From Thermococcus eurythermalis (lineage in GTDB: Archaea > Methanobacteriota_B > Thermococci > Thermococcales > Thermococcaceae): a stretch of 64,000 nucleotides of DNA. The stretch is taken from contig NZ_CP008887.1 in assembly GCF_000769655.1 (NCBI RefSeq), positions 434,001 to 498,000 on the forward strand. Direction: 5' to 3'. This document shows positions 36,956 to 48,590 of the stretch, piece by piece. How positions within the stretch are numbered: the stretch's first letter is position 1; each line of letters opens with the position of its first letter. A program made the position numbers and the translations under genes. The notes below the pieces were generated by a model. The model did not search any database, was not told the DNA's origin, and saw only the letters and a program-made list of their open reading frames with translations.

Positions 36956-37002
36956 AGTTCGTTTGTCGAACTGTTAATTTTTATGAACGTAACTTTTATA
37001 TG
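36956..37002 (+). promoter_or_regulatory. Promoter of the radical SAM gene with an adjacent inverted repeat
   Basis: AGTTCG-TTTGT-CGAACT (36956-36972) is a perfect 6-bp inverted repeat about 20 bases upstream of a TATA box CTTTTATATG (36993-37002). The transcript would start near 37025. The repeat is a candidate operator. The 240-base gap upstream is AT-rich and otherwise empty. Confidence 0.5.
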
Positions 37003-37037
37003 CTTGGATGTTATAGAATTATACGTGGTGAATGTAA

Positions 37038-38534
37038 ATGGAGAGCGAGGAATTCATTAGTTCACTGTATCTTGATAAAATACTAGATGAATACCTTCTG
37101 TTCTCACCAAAGACACTCCACCTTATTCGGTTGGATAATGAGAGTTATGAGCTACTGAATCACATTAAAAAGTATGGAATTAACGAGGGCGTTAGTGAGT
37201 TCTTAAAAAGGCACCCTAGACTCAATCGTGAAGATGTGGACAGGATAATAGAAAGCTTGAGGGCCTTGGATGCTGTTCCTTATTGCTTGAACGATGATTA
37301 TAACTCCCCGGAAGTCGTTCCTGCTTCTGTTGCTCTCTATCTCACGAGTGCATGTAACTTTAAATGCGTGTATTGTTATGAACAGCAGCATGGGATTCCG
37401 CTGTTTATGATCCGTGATGAGAATGATGCAGATGACATAATTGAGTTTTTACTTTCTAAGGGATCCTCCAAGCTCTCCGTTGGTTTCTTCGGGGGTGAGC
37501 CTCTCCTGAATTTCCGCATACTTAGATACATTGCAGAAACCCTTTCACGGAGGGCAACCTTATTAGGAAAGGCTGTTAATTTCAGCATCACAACCAACGG
37601 TTACTTGATAACGCCTTCTGTTGTGGATTTCTTCAAAAAATTCCGCTTTAATGTCGTTTTCAGTATGGATGGGCCCAGAGAGATACAGAATCACAACCGG
37701 CCCACTAAAACAGGTGATTCAACGTTTGACGTGGTCATGAAAAATCTTCGGCTTCTCATTGCCAGTGGTGTTCCTGTGACTGTGAGGGCGACCATACTTC
37801 CGGAGCAGATTGACAAGTATTTTGAAATTTTTAGATTTTTTGTAGAAAACGGTGTTGGAAGTGTTCACATTGAGCCCGCATCTATTGGCTCAAATAGCTT
37901 CCGCGAGATAATACCACCACTGAAAGAGCAATTGAGACTCGTTGCCGAGTACGAACTTCAGCACATAGAGGAGACAGCGATGTTCAGGTATTCCCACTTT
38001 AGGAAGTATTTTGCTATCCTGGCCTCGAGGCGCGCCCTTCTCTATCCCTGCGGTGCTGGTAGGAAACTTTTTGGGATATCCTCAGACGGAAGGCTTTATC
38101 CATGTCAAAGGTTTGTGGGAATGGACGGGTTCGTTATAGGGGACATTAGATCTGGCGTTGATATTAGTTCTGAGGTAATACAAAAAATACTTCTCAATCC
38201 CCCAAGGGAGCCATGTAGCCAGTGTTGGGCTTATCCCTTGTGCAGAGGGGGTTGTTATTACATAAACTACATGTATTCAGGGGATATTCACAAACCTGAT
38301 CCCTATTACTGTGAGTTTATTAGAGAGCTGATACGGCTTTCCATGTGGCTTTACATCAAAGTTAAGCGGAGTCACCCGGTGGTTTTCGAGAAAATGCTGA
38401 AATCACTTAAGTACAACTCACCCCTTGCCGGGGTGAGCGAGGCCTCGGCCGATGAGTCAAAAATTAAAAGGAGGTTGGTGAAGTATGGAGTTCGAAGTCG
38501 TGAACCCCGGAGACAACACCAAGTCTGGAAATAG
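37038..38534 (+). CDS. Radical SAM/SPASM peptide maturase
   Basis: A 498-residue enzyme expected to modify a ribosomal peptide. Residues 1-85 are helical and resemble a PqqD-like precursor-recognition element (YLLFSPKTLHLIRLDNESYELL). The radical SAM motif is C106-x3-C110-x2-C113 (CNFKCVYC), followed by GGEPL. The C-terminus has a complete SPASM set: C338, C356 (in GRLYPC), then C393-x2-C396-x5-C402-x3-C406 and C425, fitting two auxiliary iron-sulfur clusters. The start is ATG 37038 with GGTGA upstream. The composition is more AT-rich than the flanking genes. Its last 50 bases overlap a four-Cys peptide ORF in another frame, the likely substrate. Sactipeptide- or ranthipeptide-type thioether formation is the best guess. 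Confidence 0.9.
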   Translation: MESEEFISSLYLDKILDEYLLFSPKTLHLIRLDNESYELLNHIKKYGINEGVSEFLKRHPRLNREDVDRIIESLRALDAVPYCLNDDYNSPEVVPASVALYLTSACNFKCVYCYEQQHGIPLFMIRDENDADDIIEFLLSKGSSKLSVGFFGGEPLLNFRILRYIAETLSRRATLLGKAVNFSITTNGYLITPSVVDFFKKFRFNVVFSMDGPREIQNHNRPTKTGDSTFDVVMKNLRLLIASGVPVTVRATILPEQIDKYFEIFRFFVENGVGSVHIEPASIGSNSFREIIPPLKEQLRLVAEYELQHIEETAMFRYSHFRKYFAILASRRALLYPCGAGRKLFGISSDGRLYPCQRFVGMDGFVIGDIRSGVDISSEVIQKILLNPPREPCSQCWAYPLCRGGCYYINYMYSGDIHKPDPYYCEFIRELIRLSMWLYIKVKRSHPVVFEKMLKSLKYNSPLAGVSEASADESKIKRRLVKYGVRSREPRRQHQVWK

Positions 38535-38631
38535 ACCTTGCCCACTTTTTGACCATGGCGGCTGCCCGTTCCCGAAGGACATGGAGTGTTGGTGGCCAGA
38601 GGACATATGCTACAGGCCTGAGCCAATCTGA
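38485..38631 (+). CDS. Four-cysteine precursor peptide (putative RiPP)
   Basis: A 48-residue ORF at ATG 38485, with GGAGGTTGGTGA directly upstream, the best ribosome site in the locus. Residues 1-17 form a leader-like part with acidic start and GDNTKSGN; the C-terminal part holds Cys at 19, 27, 35 and 42 (spacing 7, 7 and 6), each followed by Pro or an aromatic residue (CP, CP, CW, CY). The overlap with the 3' end of the maturase gene indicates coupled translation. The even Cys spacing and the neighbour support a substrate for thioether cross-linking. No leader-cleavage protease was found nearby. Function, such as bacteriocin or redox peptide, is unknown. Confidence 0.75.
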   Translation: MEFEVVNPGDNTKSGNRPCPLFDHGGCPFPKDMECWWPEDICYRPEPI

Positions 38632-38633
38632 TG

Positions 38634-38662
38634 AGATTTTCTTTAAAAATCTTTACTTTTTT
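38634..38662 (+). terminator. Possible terminator or attenuator after the peptide gene
   Basis: AGATTTT (38634-38640), a short loop, AAAATCT (38646-38652), then TTACTTTTTT. A partial stop here would make more of the peptide message than of the permease messages. Confidence 0.4.
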
Positions 38663-38698
38663 CCACTGTCCAGTGTCTAATCTAGGGGATGATGCAAA

Positions 38699-39733
38699 AT
38701 GAAGCTCCCGTTCAAGAGCATTGCCCGGCTGGTGGCGATATACCTCTGCGTCCTTCTGGTTATTGTCCTCGTTGCGGGGGCCGCTGCCAACAAACGTACT
38801 TGGAACTACGTTTATGACGCTGTAGAGTCCTTCAGGATTTTTAATCCCGAGTTCTACTCCGAGCTTGAACGAAACGCCACCCGCGAGGGAATCAGCGTTG
38901 AGGAGTACTACTATAGAATCCTGACCAAGAGTGCGGGGGTGCGAACCCACAACCTGTTCGTTATGGGTATAGACCTGCTGAAGAAGAGTTTCAAGTACCT
39001 TTCGACTCAGAATGACTACGACCTGGGACGTTCAATCGGGGTCTCTATTCTGGTGCTGGCCGTCTCTATGCTGGCCATCATGCTCGGCGGCTACATCATC
39101 GGTCGGCTCGCCGTGAAGAGGAAACGGCTCTCAACGGTCGTTGACAACCTGGCACTTTTCTTCGCTGGGCTGCCCTCTTGGTGGGTCGGTGCCGTCCTTG
39201 TGTCGGTTTTCGCGGTCAAACTTGACCTTCTGCCCATCAGCGGGATAACAACCGTTCCTCCAAAAACAGGGTTTGCACTCGTCCTGGACGTTTTGAAGCA
39301 CCTGGTTCTCCCTGTGGGGGCGATTTTCCTTATCCACGTCTGGGAGTTCGCTTCGGTGGTTGCCCATGCGTCCAGGGAGGAGCTTGGCAAGCCCTACATC
39401 CTCGCGGAAGTGGCTAAAGGAATTCCGGAGGGGGTTATCTTCCGAAAGCACGTGCTCCGGAACATCTCAATACTGCTCGCGTCCTTCAGCGTCCAGAAGT
39501 TCATGGAAATGACCACCGACTACCTAATTGTGGATGCCTTCTTCGGCCTTGGCGGGCTTGGCGTCCTTCTGAGGAACAGCTTCGTACGCACGGTCGTGGT
39601 TCCCCAAGGAGTGGTCATGAGGTTTAACTATCACCTGTTTTTCGTGGTTCTGCTGTCAATAGCCACCATCGGCTTTCTGATGTCCCTGCTCCTTGAACTT
39701 GTTAAGGGCATACTTGACCCGAGGGTGAGCTGA
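38699..39733 (+). CDS. ABC transporter permease, DppB-like
   Basis: A 344-residue permease of the oligopeptide/nickel (DppB/OppB) type. After the first hydrophobic segment there is an unusually long extracytoplasmic region (about residues 30-105), then five more membrane spans. The EAA-type loop sits around REELGKPYILAEVAKGIPEGVIFRKHVLRN, where the ATPase would dock. LPSWWVGAVLV is a DppB hallmark segment. The ATG at 38699 has GGGGATGATG before it. It lies 67 bases after the four-Cys peptide and one base before the second permease. No ATPase or binding-protein gene is in the cluster. Confidence 0.88.
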   Translation: MKLPFKSIARLVAIYLCVLLVIVLVAGAAANKRTWNYVYDAVESFRIFNPEFYSELERNATREGISVEEYYYRILTKSAGVRTHNLFVMGIDLLKKSFKYLSTQNDYDLGRSIGVSILVLAVSMLAIMLGGYIIGRLAVKRKRLSTVVDNLALFFAGLPSWWVGAVLVSVFAVKLDLLPISGITTVPPKTGFALVLDVLKHLVLPVGAIFLIHVWEFASVVAHASREELGKPYILAEVAKGIPEGVIFRKHVLRNISILLASFSVQKFMEMTTDYLIVDAFFGLGGLGVLLRNSFVRTVVVPQGVVMRFNYHLFFVVLLSIATIGFLMSLLLELVKGILDPRVS

Positions 39734-39734
39734 G

Positions 39735-41006
39735 ATGAGGCGGAAGGTGGGCGCTCTGATACTGGCCTGTTTCCTGCTCTTTGTCGCTGTTTCGAACCTC
39801 ACCGTGGATAGAGAAAAGCTTGAGAGGTGGGAGGACATAAACTACTGGAAGGACTACCCGAGGAGGGCTTATCCCTCCTGGTTCTCTACGTTCCGCGACT
39901 TAACTCCCACCGTAACGCTCTCCCCTGAGGTTTCGGAAGAAAACGGGACTTTTGTGTACCGCTTTGTTTACAATCACAGGGCCTCCGACAAGCCAAACGA
40001 CGTAAGGTTCTACGGCCTTTCGCGCCAGGTTAAGGTTGAAATAAGCGTCACCCGGCCGGACGGCATCGAGGTGACCCTTTACAGGGGGAGACCCGTTTCG
40101 GAAAACATGAGCCTGAACGTCAATATGAAGTCCGGGGTTGAAAGCCAGATATCTTCTGTGTTCGGCCTCTCTGTGGAGAGCTACGTCCTGCGGCCCCCCA
40201 CACACCTCCTTTTCATCGCGGACGCTTCCTTTGAGACCCTTAAAGGTGAGTACGTCTTTGAGGTCAGGTCGCCGGAGCCGCTTTCCCCGCAGATGCAGGT
40301 TATAGGAACGTGCTACGGCCTGATGGGCACTGATTCAAGGGGTCGGGACCTCTGGGTCGGCTTTGTCAAGGCAATGAACAACACCCTGTTCCTGGCCTTC
40401 TTCACCGCTGTGTTCGTCGTTGTCCTGGGCGTCATAATCGGGATGGTCTCTGGCTACGTTGGTGGGGCAGTGGGCGAGGCTTTGAGCTTCATTCTGGAGG
40501 TTCTTATGACCCTCCCCCTCCTTCCGATGCTCGTTGTCCTCGTCTGGCTGTTCTCTACCCAGGGTCTGAGGGAGCAGGTGCAGATTAACCCGGTGGTTTT
40601 CATGCTGCTCGTTGCTGTAATGATAATGGGCAAGCTCGCAAAGACCATCAAGATGATGACCGTGAAGGAGAAGGTTAACGAGTACGTCAAGGCCGCGGAA
40701 ATCATGGGAGCTGGGACACTGTGGGTCCTCAGGAAGCACATATTCCCGCCGATTCTGAGCTTCTCGGCCAGGTACTTCGCGACGCTCCTGGTTAGAGTCG
40801 TGGCGCTTATTTCCCTCTTTGGGTTCTTCGGGCTAATCCCAGGCACAAACTGGGGTTCCTTCATGATAGAGGCAATGATGGAGGGGGCAATCTACGGTGG
40901 CTGCTGGTGGTGGATACTTCCCCCGGGACTCGCCATGGCTGTCCTGAGCGCCGGTTTAGTTTTAATACTGCCCTCGGGAGAGGTCCAGTCCGTCACCATT
41001 GGGTAG
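39735..41006 (+). CDS. ABC transporter permease, DppC-like with large external domain
   Basis: A 423-residue permease. After one N-terminal span, residues about 22-205 form a large extracytoplasmic domain with strands and N-x-S/T sites, far longer than in normal DppC. GTDSRGRDLWVGFVKAMNNTL is the typical DppC transition into the core, which has five membrane spans and an EAA-type loop in YVKAAEIMGAGTLWVLRKHIFPPI. LPLLPMLVVLVWL matches DppC helix 4. The gene follows the DppB-like permease after one base. The extra domain might handle the modified peptide or a binding protein. Confidence 0.88.
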   Translation: MRRKVGALILACFLLFVAVSNLTVDREKLERWEDINYWKDYPRRAYPSWFSTFRDLTPTVTLSPEVSEENGTFVYRFVYNHRASDKPNDVRFYGLSRQVKVEISVTRPDGIEVTLYRGRPVSENMSLNVNMKSGVESQISSVFGLSVESYVLRPPTHLLFIADASFETLKGEYVFEVRSPEPLSPQMQVIGTCYGLMGTDSRGRDLWVGFVKAMNNTLFLAFFTAVFVVVLGVIIGMVSGYVGGAVGEALSFILEVLMTLPLLPMLVVLVWLFSTQGLREQVQINPVVFMLLVAVMIMGKLAKTIKMMTVKEKVNEYVKAAEIMGAGTLWVLRKHIFPPILSFSARYFATLLVRVVALISLFGFFGLIPGTNWGSFMIEAMMEGAIYGGCWWWILPPGLAMAVLSAGLVLILPSGEVQSVTIG

Positions 41007-44951: not shown

Positions 44952-47900
44952 GTGTTCGGCGAGAAAAAGAAAAAGGAGGAGGGCTTTTCCTGGATAGACG
45001 AGATACTCTCCGGTAATGCGGATCCATTAGAGAATGTTCTCAAAAAGAAGGGGGAAGAGAAGCCGCCCCTTCCATTTTCTTCCTCAGAGGGCTCTCTTGA
45101 GGATATCCTTGGAGGCGTTTCAAAAGAAGGGACAGAAGCCAAGAAGGGGCCGGAGCAGACGTCTGCTGACATACTGAGCTCCATACTCGGGGGAGAGTCA
45201 TCTAAACCAAGGCCGGAACCCCAGCCCCCAAAGCCGGAGACCGGTGCTGATATTCTGAGTTCCCTTCTCGGTTCCTCTCCAGCCCCTGAGCCGAAGCCCC
45301 GGCCAAAGCCCGTTGAATCAAAGCCTCCTGAAACTCCTGCTGGTCTGGTGGGACTGCCCTCCACTGGCGGCGGTACCGGTGTTGATGTCCTGAGCGAGAT
45401 TCTCGGGAAACCCTCCTCAAGTGCCCCTCCAAAGAAAACTCTCCCAGTTCCGCCTGGAAGGCCCCCAAGCGATATCCATGATATCCTTGGCTCTTCGCCC
45501 TCCGAAGAGTCGTCCCTGGCCGGAAGGGGTGAGGTACTTGACGCGTACGGCAATGTCCGTATCATCAGGGTCAAGGGAGAACCCGTTCCAATTTACGAGG
45601 TTCGCTTCCCCAAGCTCAGCGCAGAAGAGCAAAGGCTCTTCCGGCGCATCAAAGAGAGGGCTATAACCGAGATTCAAATTGACCCGACGGCCATACCAAA
45701 CCCCGAGGAGCGCAGGAAGGTCTTCATGAACGCAGTGAAAAAGATGATTAAGGAGGAAGCCCCCCACTACTCGGAGGGCAGAATTGAGGTTCTGGCCGAC
45801 ATGATAGTCCAGCAGATGATAGGCTACGGCAAGCTTGACCCTCTCGTCAGGGACGACAACCTTGAGGAAATCATGGTCATAGGCACCAACAGGCCTGTTT
45901 ACGTCTGGCACAGGCGCTTCAACATGTGTAAGACCAACATAGTCTTCCCGGAGGACAAGGAGATACTCAACATAATCGAGAGAATAGCGAGGGAAGTTGG
46001 CAGGAGAATTGACCAGCAGAGCCCCCTCCTGGACGCCCGTCTCCCGGACGGAAGCCGTGTTAACGCCACTATTCCCCCAATCAGCTTGGACGGTCCGACG
46101 ATAACCATACGTAAGTTCAAGAAAGACCCGCTCACCATAATAGACCTTATCAAGTACGGTACCATAAGCCCTGAGATAGCGGCGTTTTTCTGGGTTCTTG
46201 TTGACGGACTAGGAGTTAAGCCCGCGAACATTCTTGTGGCCGGAGGAACGGGTTCCGGAAAGACGACGATGCTTAACTCCCTTGGAATGTTCATTCCACC
46301 GAGCGAGCGCGTTATCACCATCGAGGACACCGCCGAGCTCCAGCTCCCCGTTGAGCACTGGGTAAGGCTTGAGACCAGGCCGCCGAACCTTGAGGGTAAG
46401 GGAGAGGTCACGATGGACGACCTCGTCAAGAACACCCTCCGTATGCGTCCGGATAGAATCATCGTCGGTGAGGTTCGTGGCCCAGAAGCAAGAACGATGT
46501 TCACTGCTATGAACACGGGCCATAATGGTGCCCTCTACGACTTCTCGGTCATACAGCTCTCAGACGGGCGCTTTGTCCTCATCGGCGACCTTCTTGAGGA
46601 GCTCTTTGCCAAATACTCCGACAGAATCGAGACATACAAAGATCTGGAGTATGTGGTTCTCAATGAAGAGGACAGGTTTGAGGTCGTCAGTGTCGGGCCC
46701 GACTTAAAGGCGGGGAAGCACATTGTTTCGAGAGTCTGGCGGAGGAAGGTGAGGCCCGGCGAGAAGCTCATTCGTGTTAGGACGAGGACTGGCAACGAAG
46801 TTATACTCACAAAGACCCACCCGTTCTTTGTGTTCTCGGACGGTGACGTGGTCAGGAAAGAGGCGGAGAAGCTAAAGCCCGGGGACAGGGTTGCGGTTAT
46901 GAGAAAACCGCCGAAGCCACCCCAAAAGAAGGCTGTCATCAACCCCGAACTCTACGCTGGAATAAGCGACTACTACCTCGTTCCCAATGGAAATGGCCTC
47001 GTAAAGGTTCCGAACGATGGAATTCCGCCGGAGACGGCCCAGTATCTGCTCTCAGTTAACTCCAAACCGGTGAGGATAGTCCGTGAAGTGGACGAGGGAC
47101 TCTCCTATGCCGTTGGAGTCCTCCTCGGGGACGGCTATATATCCTCCGACGGCTACTACATCTCGGCAACATTCGATGATGAGTCGTACATGGAAGCCTT
47201 CACCTCTTCCCTCTCAGAGTTCCTCCCTGAGAGCAGGCCGCAGGTCAAACGCGAATCAGCGTACACCGTGGTGACGTACGGATCAAAGCCCTTTGCGGAG
47301 TTCCTGCACAGAGCCTTTGGAGTACCTAAGGGACACAAGGAACAGATTGATGTCCCTGACCTGGTTCTGGCAAACGATGAACTGCTGAGGCACTTCATAG
47401 CGGGTCTGTTCGATGCCGATGCCTACGTTGATGAGAAGGGCCCCGCTGTCATTTTAACCACGAGAAGCGAGAACCTGGCGAGAAAGGTCTGGTACGCCCT
47501 CCAGAGGCTCGGAATAATAAGCACGGTCTCCCGTGTGAAGAACAGGGGTTACAAGGAGGGTATAATCTTCAGGGTCACCGTCAGGGGCGTTGATGACCTC
47601 ATTAAGTTCCACCGCTACATCCCGCTCAGGCACTCGAGGAAGAGGGCAAAGCTTGAGGAAGTCATAAAGAGGTACAGGTCGTACCGCGTTAAGAGGACCG
47701 ACCGCGTCCCGATTTCCCCGGTGATGCTCGAACCGCTCAGGAGAAAGCTTAACCTCACGGTTTCAGAGCTTTCAAGGCTCGCCTCAACCTACGCGGGCGA
47801 GAAAATATCGGAGAGTCTTATAAGGCACGTCGAGAAGGGCAGAACGAAGGAAATCAGGCGCTCTGCCCTGAAAGGAATAGCACTCGCCCTGCAGCAGGTT

Positions 47901-48590
47901 GCTGATGACTTAAAGGACGAGGACGCGTGGGTTCAGGCCAAGAGGCTTGAGCTGATAGCCGATGGAGACGTCTACTGGGATGAGGTTGTGAGCGTTGAAG
48001 AAGTCGAGCCGGGGGAGCTTGGCATAGAGTATCTCTACGATCTCACCGTTGAGGAGGATCACAACTACGTGGCCAACGGGATTCTCGTCTCGAACTGTAT
48101 GGGTACCATCCACGCAAACAGCGCCAGAGAAACGATTGTCAGGCTTGAGAGCCCGCCGATGAATGTCCCGAGGATCATGATTCCTGCCCTGGACATCATC
48201 ATTATGCAGGTTCGTTTCCACAGCAGAAAGAAGGGAACGATAAGACGTGTTACGGAAATAGCTGAGGTATCGGGAATAGAAGGGGAGAGCGTACAGCTCA
48301 ACAAGCTCTACAAATACGACCCTGCCAAGGATGAACTCGTCCCGACGGGCGTGCCGAGCAAGACCCTCAACACACTCGCCCACCACACCGGCATGAGCGT
48401 AAAGGAAATTGAGCTTGAAATAGAAAAACGCAAGATAATCCTTGAGTGGATGATCGAGAACGGCATCAGGGGCATAAACGAGGTAGGCTACTACATCAGG
48501 CAGTTCTACATCGACGAGGAGGAGCTCATGAAGAAGATAGCCTCCGAGAGCAGTGTTGAGACTAGCAAACAGATTCAACGGATGATGTGA
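44952..48590 (+). CDS. klbA: Type II/IV secretion ATPase KlbA with intein
   Basis: A 1212-codon gene; the mature ATPase is 690 residues after removal of a 522-residue intein. Residues 1-195 are a Ser/Pro/Glu-rich region with repeated short motifs (ILSSILGG, ILSSLLGS, VLSEILGK, IHDILGSS). Residues about 195-526 and 1049-1212 form a VirB11/GspE-type ATPase: GGTGSGKTT (Walker A), the Asp box DTAELQLP, MRPDRIIVGEVRGPEA (Walker B) and, after the intein, CMGTIHANSARE (His box). It powers assembly of a type IV pilus or Tad-like secretion system. The start GTG at 44952 is close to the previous stop; the gene lies between DUF515/secreted protein and two membrane-platform genes. Confidence 0.95.
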   Translation: MFGEKKKKEEGFSWIDEILSGNADPLENVLKKKGEEKPPLPFSSSEGSLEDILGGVSKEGTEAKKGPEQTSADILSSILGGESSKPRPEPQPPKPETGADILSSLLGSSPAPEPKPRPKPVESKPPETPAGLVGLPSTGGGTGVDVLSEILGKPSSSAPPKKTLPVPPGRPPSDIHDILGSSPSEESSLAGRGEVLDAYGNVRIIRVKGEPVPIYEVRFPKLSAEEQRLFRRIKERAITEIQIDPTAIPNPEERRKVFMNAVKKMIKEEAPHYSEGRIEVLADMIVQQMIGYGKLDPLVRDDNLEEIMVIGTNRPVYVWHRRFNMCKTNIVFPEDKEILNIIERIAREVGRRIDQQSPLLDARLPDGSRVNATIPPISLDGPTITIRKFKKDPLTIIDLIKYGTISPEIAAFFWVLVDGLGVKPANILVAGGTGSGKTTMLNSLGMFIPPSERVITIEDTAELQLPVEHWVRLETRPPNLEGKGEVTMDDLVKNTLRMRPDRIIVGEVRGPEARTMFTAMNTGHNGALYDFSVIQLSDGRFVLIGDLLEELFAKYSDRIETYKDLEYVVLNEEDRFEVVSVGPDLKAGKHIVSRVWRRKVRPGEKLIRVRTRTGNEVILTKTHPFFVFSDGDVVRKEAEKLKPGDRVAVMRKPPKPPQKKAVINPELYAGISDYYLVPNGNGLVKVPNDGIPPETAQYLLSVNSKPVRIVREVDEGLSYAVGVLLGDGYISSDGYYISATFDDESYMEAFTSSLSEFLPESRPQVKRESAYTVVTYGSKPFAEFLHRAFGVPKGHKEQIDVPDLVLANDELLRHFIAGLFDADAYVDEKGPAVILTTRSENLARKVWYALQRLGIISTVSRVKNRGYKEGIIFRVTVRGVDDLIKFHRYIPLRHSRKRAKLEEVIKRYRSYRVKRTDRVPISPVMLEPLRRKLNLTVSELSRLASTYAGEKISESLIRHVEKGRTKEIRRSALKGIALALQQVADDLKDEDAWVQAKRLELIADGDVYWDEVVSVEEVEPGELGIEYLYDLTVEEDHNYVANGILVSNCMGTIHANSARETIVRLESPPMNVPRIMIPALDIIIMQVRFHSRKKGTIRRVTEIAEVSGIEGESVQLNKLYKYDPAKDELVPTGVPSKTLNTLAHHTGMSVKEIELEIEKRKIILEWMIENGIRGINEVGYYIRQFYIDEEELMKKIASESSVETSKQIQRMM
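46530..48095 (+). mobile_element. KlbA intein with LAGLIDADG endonuclease
   Basis: Codons 527-1048 interrupt the conserved NTGHNG/CMGTIHANS sequence of the ATPase. The intein begins with Ala (ALYDFSV), not Cys or Ser, and ends in VSN before Cys+1, as in the known class 2 KlbA inteins, where Cys+1 attacks directly. Block B is THPFFVF, block F YLYDLTVEEDHNYVANG. The homing endonuclease shows two LAGLIDADG-like helices, AVGVLLGDGY and FIAGLFDADAY. The segment around SPVMLEPLRRKLNLTVSEL resembles a helix-turn-helix seen between endonuclease and C-terminal splicing domain. All splicing residues appear intact. Confidence 0.93.

Follow-up and report, generated by a model that had tools for sequence, protein, structure and literature searches.

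A candidate ranthipeptide-type maturase and precursor pair in Thermococcus eurythermalis and related peptide systems in Thermococcales

A stretch of 64,000 nucleotides (hereafter, the window) was analyzed, which corresponds to positions 434001-498000 of the main contig in the 2.13 Mb genome of Thermococcus eurythermalis. It contains a radical SAM peptide-modifying system that is very probably composed of an enzyme and its own substrate peptide. Judging from family scores and from the spacing of Cys and acidic residues, this is likely a ranthipeptide-type RiPP cassette, in which a PapB-like enzyme would make up to four Cys-Asp/Glu thioethers. Related systems were detected in other Thermococcales.

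Results and Discussion

Organization of the cassette

The sequence-only reading of this DNA had described a maturase, an overlapping four-Cys peptide and two Dpp-type permeases, in this order, and all four genes were found at the places it had given, on the + strand (as are all features listed here). They are flanked by a THUMP-type methyltransferase and a GTPase, both on the opposite strand (names assigned by eye). A TATA-like box read from the sequence (TTTTATATG, 36994..37002) lies 5' of the maturase, and an equivalent TTATA stretch also precedes the maturase remnants of two other genomes, G011 and G008. The ribosome site of the maturase is GGTGA (37027-37031). The enzyme itself, a radical SAM/SPASM peptide maturase of 498 aa (37038..38534), was assigned by motif, profile and fold comparisons. 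Its gene is overlapped at the end by 50 nt of the gene for the 48-aa precursor peptide, MEFEVVNPGDNTKSGNRPCPLFDHGGCPFPKDMECWWPEDICYRPEPI (38485..38631), which was called as an ORF with conservation and whose ATG is preceded by its own ribosome-binding site, GGAGGT, located within the maturase 3' end (38470..38475) and conserved in three orthologues. Between the peptide and the first permease we read a TATA-like sequence, TTTAAAAA (38642..38649), and 3' of it a T-run (38657-38662). The B-type (344 aa, 38699..39733) and C-type (423 aa, 39735..41006) Dpp/Opp ABC permeases, identified by profile match, adjoin the pair, and their link to the peptide is uncertain.

Elsewhere in the window (44952-48590), a 1212-aa secretion/archaellum-type ATPase carries an intein at residues ~528-1050. 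Both N- and C-terminal splicing regions were matched, and the gene is uninterrupted in relatives (616-622 aa). This is probably the known KlbA-type intein.

The maturase

The SAM motif of the maturase is C106-X3-C110-X2-C113, and its SPASM domain has seven Cys (338, 356, 393, 396, 402, 406 and 425; spacing CX9-15GX4C, CX2CX5CX3C, C). These three SAM and seven SPASM Cys were invariant among 10 aligned homologues, down to 28% identity, and Pfam detected Radical_SAM (2.7e-22) and SPASM (4.7e-5) above threshold. CteB was the top solved structure both by sequence profile (7.7e-88, residues 7-438) and by fold (TM 0.82 to target, over the whole length including the leader-binding domain); the predicted structure used for the latter had a mean pLDDT of 75.8 and a pTM of 0.78, with a shallow alignment (10 sequences) and a weak SPASM region. 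From alignment with the CteB structure, an N-terminal leader-binding (RRE-like, PqqD-like) domain was placed at residues ~1-80, with no direct match of this region to the PqqD Pfam model. The precursor-binding-like N-terminus, the SAM cysteines and the full set of SPASM cysteines, all noticed earlier from the letters, are therefore present by sequence and fold.

In NCBIfam, the maturase matched PapB best (NF047865; 3e-67, 227 bits against a curated cut-off of 340), followed by QhpD (6e-67, 226 bits against 453), and the SCIFF maturase model TIGR03974 gave 172 bits against 425. As a control, a Paenibacillus ottowii maturase, whose neighbor peptide is of the CX3D type, scored 434 bits on the PapB model. 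With every score below the curated cut-off, membership in the PapB, SCIFF or QhpD family was rejected.

The C-terminus of the window enzyme is unlike that of its orthologues (498 vs 490 aa, with approximately the last 18 residues differing), because an A-run at 38466..38469 has one base fewer than its counterpart in the three orthologues. The peptide frame is unaffected.

The precursor peptide

The peptide consists of a leader of ~18 residues followed by CPLFD, CPFPKD, CWWPED and CYRPE. It had no match in Pfam or NCBIfam, including the freyrasin-like precursor model NF037957, which the Paenibacillus peptide matches weakly. Such a short frame, overlapping a larger gene and lacking a family match, could be a chance ORF, with the maturase acting elsewhere. 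We consider this very improbable, as conservation, the ribosome site and the related loci all contradict it. The window holds 566 ORFs of 25-110 aa; just two of them contain four or more Cys with D/E at +3 to +5, and of these two the 48-aa frame alone has a ribosome site. Across 61 genomes of the genus, the peptide was located in exactly three, the same three that have an orthologous maturase, and always adjoining it; the order of the two genes is thus kept in 4/4 intact orthologous loci. An analogous peptide is also present at every near-complete related locus, as described below.

The frame proved to be conserved at the protein level: the peptides of the three relatives are 74-77% identical to that of the window, with all four Cys kept, and the neighboring maturase is 83% identical. 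Compared with the window, dN was 0.13-0.17 and dS 0.31-0.66 over the whole frame, with dN < dS in all pairs, and the values outside the overlap were 0.17-0.19 and 0.38-0.96, respectively. For 48 codons and three near-identical relatives, this suggests a purifying trend on the peptide. A stronger sign of a real gene is that each Cys is kept together with an acid at the fourth or fifth position after it. In the three relatives, an Asp or Glu invariably stands at the fourth residue after each Cys (CX3D/E); in the window peptide this holds for three of the four, and the fourth is CX4D (CPFPKD; CPFPED in the others). Pooled over the four orthologous precursors known, three of which are nearly identical, the first acidic residue is at X3 for 15 of 16 Cys and at X4 for one.

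Related systems in Thermococcales

When 94 genomes of the family were searched with a maturase profile, 16 proved to encode related enzymes. In the tree, thermococcal maturases fall into four groups, which together are only moderately supported (85/76); the window maturase belongs to type 1. A Cys peptide adjoins the maturase in 20/20 near-complete loci from all four groups, so the pairing proposed by the sequence-only reading recurs at each of them, and homologues regularly lacking such a neighbor were not observed. These loci are in G000, G018, G025 and G035 (type 1), G018, G022, G025, G035, G069, G078 and G084 (type 2), G109 and G117 (type 3), and G004, G022, G023, G067, G089, G092 and a Thermococcus nautili plasmid (type 4). 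The type 4 maturase match in G004 crosses one stop codon near its end. In G062 there is a truncated type 4 maturase, with no peptide in the gap.

Type 2 precursors (for example, MFKKLNAGGNPVEPLCWISDSCKTIDSGGCWLFDSCDYDHGDCKIRDSCGRDYN) combine a conserved leader with CX2-3D cores that vary greatly, occur in one to three copies per locus, and are found in loci that also hold ABC-2-type genes. Their near-constant leader, MFKKLNAG.NPVEP, is followed by strongly differing cores (L086 9330-10327, L082 8922-9233, L087 11184-11497), a pattern that resembles diversifying peptide systems. Type 3 was found in two genomes of other genera, and its precursors are similar to those of type 2. Type 4 peptides have 31-42 aa, mostly of the CX4D...CE form, and are accompanied by an MFS transporter. 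On the 103-kb T. nautili plasmid (NZ_OX281346.1; L208 5947-8986), a 34-aa peptide, MRAMVKTRPKMEDDMLCSRIGDQWCEASDKAEII, lies between a type 4 maturase and an MFS transporter. The gene table of the plasmid, known to have gaps, includes entries for the radical SAM protein and the transporter and none for the intervening peptide, an example of how easily small precursor peptides are missed. A wider contig search yielded only distant maturases, almost all bacterial and many of the SCIFF type, and in a viral sequence collection only distant maturases were matched.

Several other features were observed near these loci or in the same genomes. A LolCE/YbbP-like ABC module (a ~230-aa ATPase and a 651-aa membrane protein) adjoins the type 1 permeases in G011 (L092 1416-4047) and the type 2 maturase in G069 (L207 7543-10150). 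The T. eurythermalis genome has a second radical SAM/SPASM maturase (L094 8167-9637, C1 ~1432166-1433636), whose best NCBIfam match is CefB at 222 bits, below the cut-off, and which has a 39-aa peptide, MKIETLYTTKEEITSGCQVPPNFYGCPNLCITINDEESE, just upstream. A third system combines a maturase and a peptide-export-type ABC transporter with a peptide of 31-35 aa whose C-terminus is GSGN(H/Y)CCCN; it is found in this genome (L101 5916-9072), where the maturase gene is broken into two frames, and in G011 (L102 7355-10527), where it is intact.

Within the openly accessible literature searched, we found no paper naming Thermococcus together with ranthipeptide, and four or more related peptide systems of these archaea appear to lack a published description. 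Genetically tractable hyperthermophiles with at least four maturase-precursor systems would yield heat-stable peptide-stapling enzymes, and the question of archaeal modified peptides in signaling or warfare would become directly testable. A more far-reaching proposal, which we regard as rather improbable, is that thioether-ringed peptides form a family peculiar to Thermococcales, with several types of precursor and with cores that vary, through which these organisms communicate or antagonize one another at high temperature. On this view, the importer-type permeases would take up the peptides or confer immunity, and former producers would retain them.

History of the locus

The permease pair is located between the same two flanking genes in 11 genomes: four have the maturase and peptide, two have maturase remnants and five are without trace of it. 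Only the first 71 maturase codons are left in G011, and ~28 codons with a frameshift in G008, in each case behind the old promoter region; G011 also has an extra ABC module between the permeases and the GTPase. By sequence comparison, the remnants in these two further genomes show that the maturase is old at the locus.

The lower GC content of the maturase gene noticed earlier is real (0.441 vs 0.530 in the window; GC3 0.47 vs 0.70-0.78 in neighbors). The transfer into this genome that it was taken to suggest, however, was not supported. Low GC is common to all orthologues: type 1 maturases have 0.48-0.49, and those of type 2 have 0.47-0.49 in loci of 0.52-0.55, so that low GC is, on this comparison, partly a property of the gene. 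In addition, the window maturase is as diverged as its surroundings, with 84% DNA identity to the three orthologues compared with 79-83% for the flanks, and the remnants indicate an old gene. Recent horizontal import into the window genome is thus unsupported by both orthologue GC and DNA identity along the locus. A different picture was obtained for G018, G025 and G035, whose maturases share 98% DNA identity, whereas the flanking methyltransferase and GTPase share 82-87% and 85-92%, respectively; therefore, the cassette was probably exchanged by recombination among these three genomes.

The permeases

Both permeases match Pfam BPD_transp_1; their NCBIfam matches, to the B and C subunits of Opp/Dpp, score far under every curated cut-off. 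Their EAA-type loops look intact by eye, and in the C-type protein the first membrane helix is followed by a large insertion. Neither a binding protein gene nor an ATPase gene was found beside the pair in the window, where the downstream neighbor is the GTPase on the other strand, and an ATPase would need to be supplied from another locus. The TATA-like sequence TTTAAAAA and the T-run suggest that the permeases may be under their own promoter. The window permeases are 58-65% identical to those of the other ten genomes, which are mutually 71-100% identical; for comparison, the flanking methyltransferase is 86-91% and the maturase 83% identical to orthologues. Replacement by a distant allele would fit this excess divergence.

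The sequence-only reading had spoken of a system with its own permeases. The part of this statement that concerns adjacency stands, as the pair is directly downstream in all four intact loci. The view of the permeases as an inseparable part of the system is weakened, because seven of the 11 genomes keep the pair at the locus without an intact maturase, because the pair has a separate TATA-like box, and because in the C-type permease tree type 2 pairs group with maturase-free pairs and not with type 1. From these same observations, there is close to an even chance that the pair is an unrelated resident transporter, with the maturase and peptide merely upstream of it and a permease phylogeny that does not follow that of the maturase, although Dpp-type pairs recur near three groups of the maturase clade.

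The opposite reading, that the permeases belong to the peptide system (re-import for signaling, or immunity) and that non-producers keep them, protected or eavesdropping, is tentative and on balance doubtful. In its favor are the position of the pair in the intact loci, its intactness in the two genomes with maturase remnants and in the five without maturase, and the presence of a Dpp-type pair close by in type 2 and type 3 loci, with type 2 pairs also outlasting their maturase. Besides the tree, the apparent promoter and the lack of an adjoining binding protein or ATPase gene, it has to contend with the MFS transporter that type 4 systems use instead and with the type 2 cassettes of G084 and G078, which have no permease pair in the stretch read. 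A functional link to the peptide is nevertheless possible, because Dpp-type pairs occur beside 3/4 groups and are kept after maturase loss, as would be the case for uptake or immunity genes.

Proposed chemistry

PapB forms links between Cys and the Asp or Glu of CX3D/E motifs and also accepts CX0-6D (PMC9413430). Several observations support a thioether reading of the window cassette: PapB is the best NCBIfam match and QhpD the next, CX3D/E spacing is found at 15/16 Cys, related thermococcal precursors are rich in CX2-3D (types 2 and 3) or CX4D (type 4) and pair constant leaders with changing cores, the seven-Cys SPASM is invariant, and thioether-forming CteB is on top by sequence and fold. 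Counting against it are the score of 227 vs 340 bits on the PapB model, the position of PapB outside the thermococcal group in the tree (with modest support), the absence of an NCBIfam match for the precursor and the one window motif of four that is CX4D. The same enzyme and substrate could instead form another bond, either sactionine (alpha-carbon) thioethers or a C-C cyclophane to Trp/Tyr/Phe. CteB is the closest solved structure, the same region also gives sub-threshold matches to several maturases of cyclophanes and sactipeptides, aromatic residues are abundant in the core (CPF, ECWW, CYR), and sequence cannot fix the bond type with certainty. We find this alternative unlikely, since sactionine and cyclophane families score far lower (RumMC 91 bits and YhhB 87 bits, vs 227 for PapB), and since what the thermococcal precursor types have in common is the number of Cys and their distance to acidic residues rather than the spacing of aromatics.

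For the thioether reading, leader binding, SAM cleavage and closure onto Asp/Glu are proposed because of family behavior and motif spacing. The overlap and the ribosome site show that the peptide is translated from within the end of the maturase gene, so that enzyme and substrate are made together. The fold of the maturase implies that its N-terminal domain may then bind the short conserved leader (MEFEVVNPGD...). SAM would be cleaved at the CX3CX2C cluster and, with two SPASM auxiliary clusters, a side-chain hydrogen would be taken from the acidic residue, which would be joined to the Cys sulfur approximately four residues upstream. Rings are predicted at CPLFD, CPFPKD, CWWPE(D) and CYRPE, that is, up to four thioethers with a loss of 8 Da. 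A cellular protease might remove the leader; no protease gene was identified in the cassette. It may be speculated that the core, heat-stable, rich in Trp and Pro and locked by its rings, serves as a signal or an antagonist, either extracellularly or at the membrane, and the permease pair may import the product or protect against it.

Comparison with known systems

Genome mining for archaeal RiPPs predicted ranthipeptide/sactipeptide-type clusters across archaea; the survey characterizes lanthipeptides and does not mention Thermococcus or Thermococcales (PMC12144867). With SCIFF/CteB, the window system shares the whole-chain fold including the leader-binding domain and the seven-Cys SPASM of the top solved structure. 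However, clostridial SCIFF precursors carry a CGECQTSCQSACKTSC-type core with six Cys, whereas the window peptide has four in another pattern, and the maturase reaches 172 of 425 bits.

QhpD, the quinohemoprotein amine dehydrogenase maturation protein, matches nearly as well as PapB (6e-67), and joins Cys to the methylene carbons of Asp/Glu. Its substrate is an enzyme subunit whose gene accompanies those of the dehydrogenase, whereas no dehydrogenase genes were seen beside the window maturase.

PapA/PapB and freyrasin, the Paenibacillus ranthipeptides, share with the window system the radical SAM/SPASM domain order, the Cys-X3-Asp/Glu precursor motifs and gene adjacency. The window maturase differs in being ~30% identical and under the PapB cut-off. 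Its precursor carries four Cys-acid motifs, compared with six, in a Trp/Pro-rich sequence where most acceptors are Glu, and is encoded by a gene that overlaps the maturase 3' end, whereas the PapA-type gene precedes the maturase. Finally, the host is an archaeon, and Dpp-type permeases are located next door.
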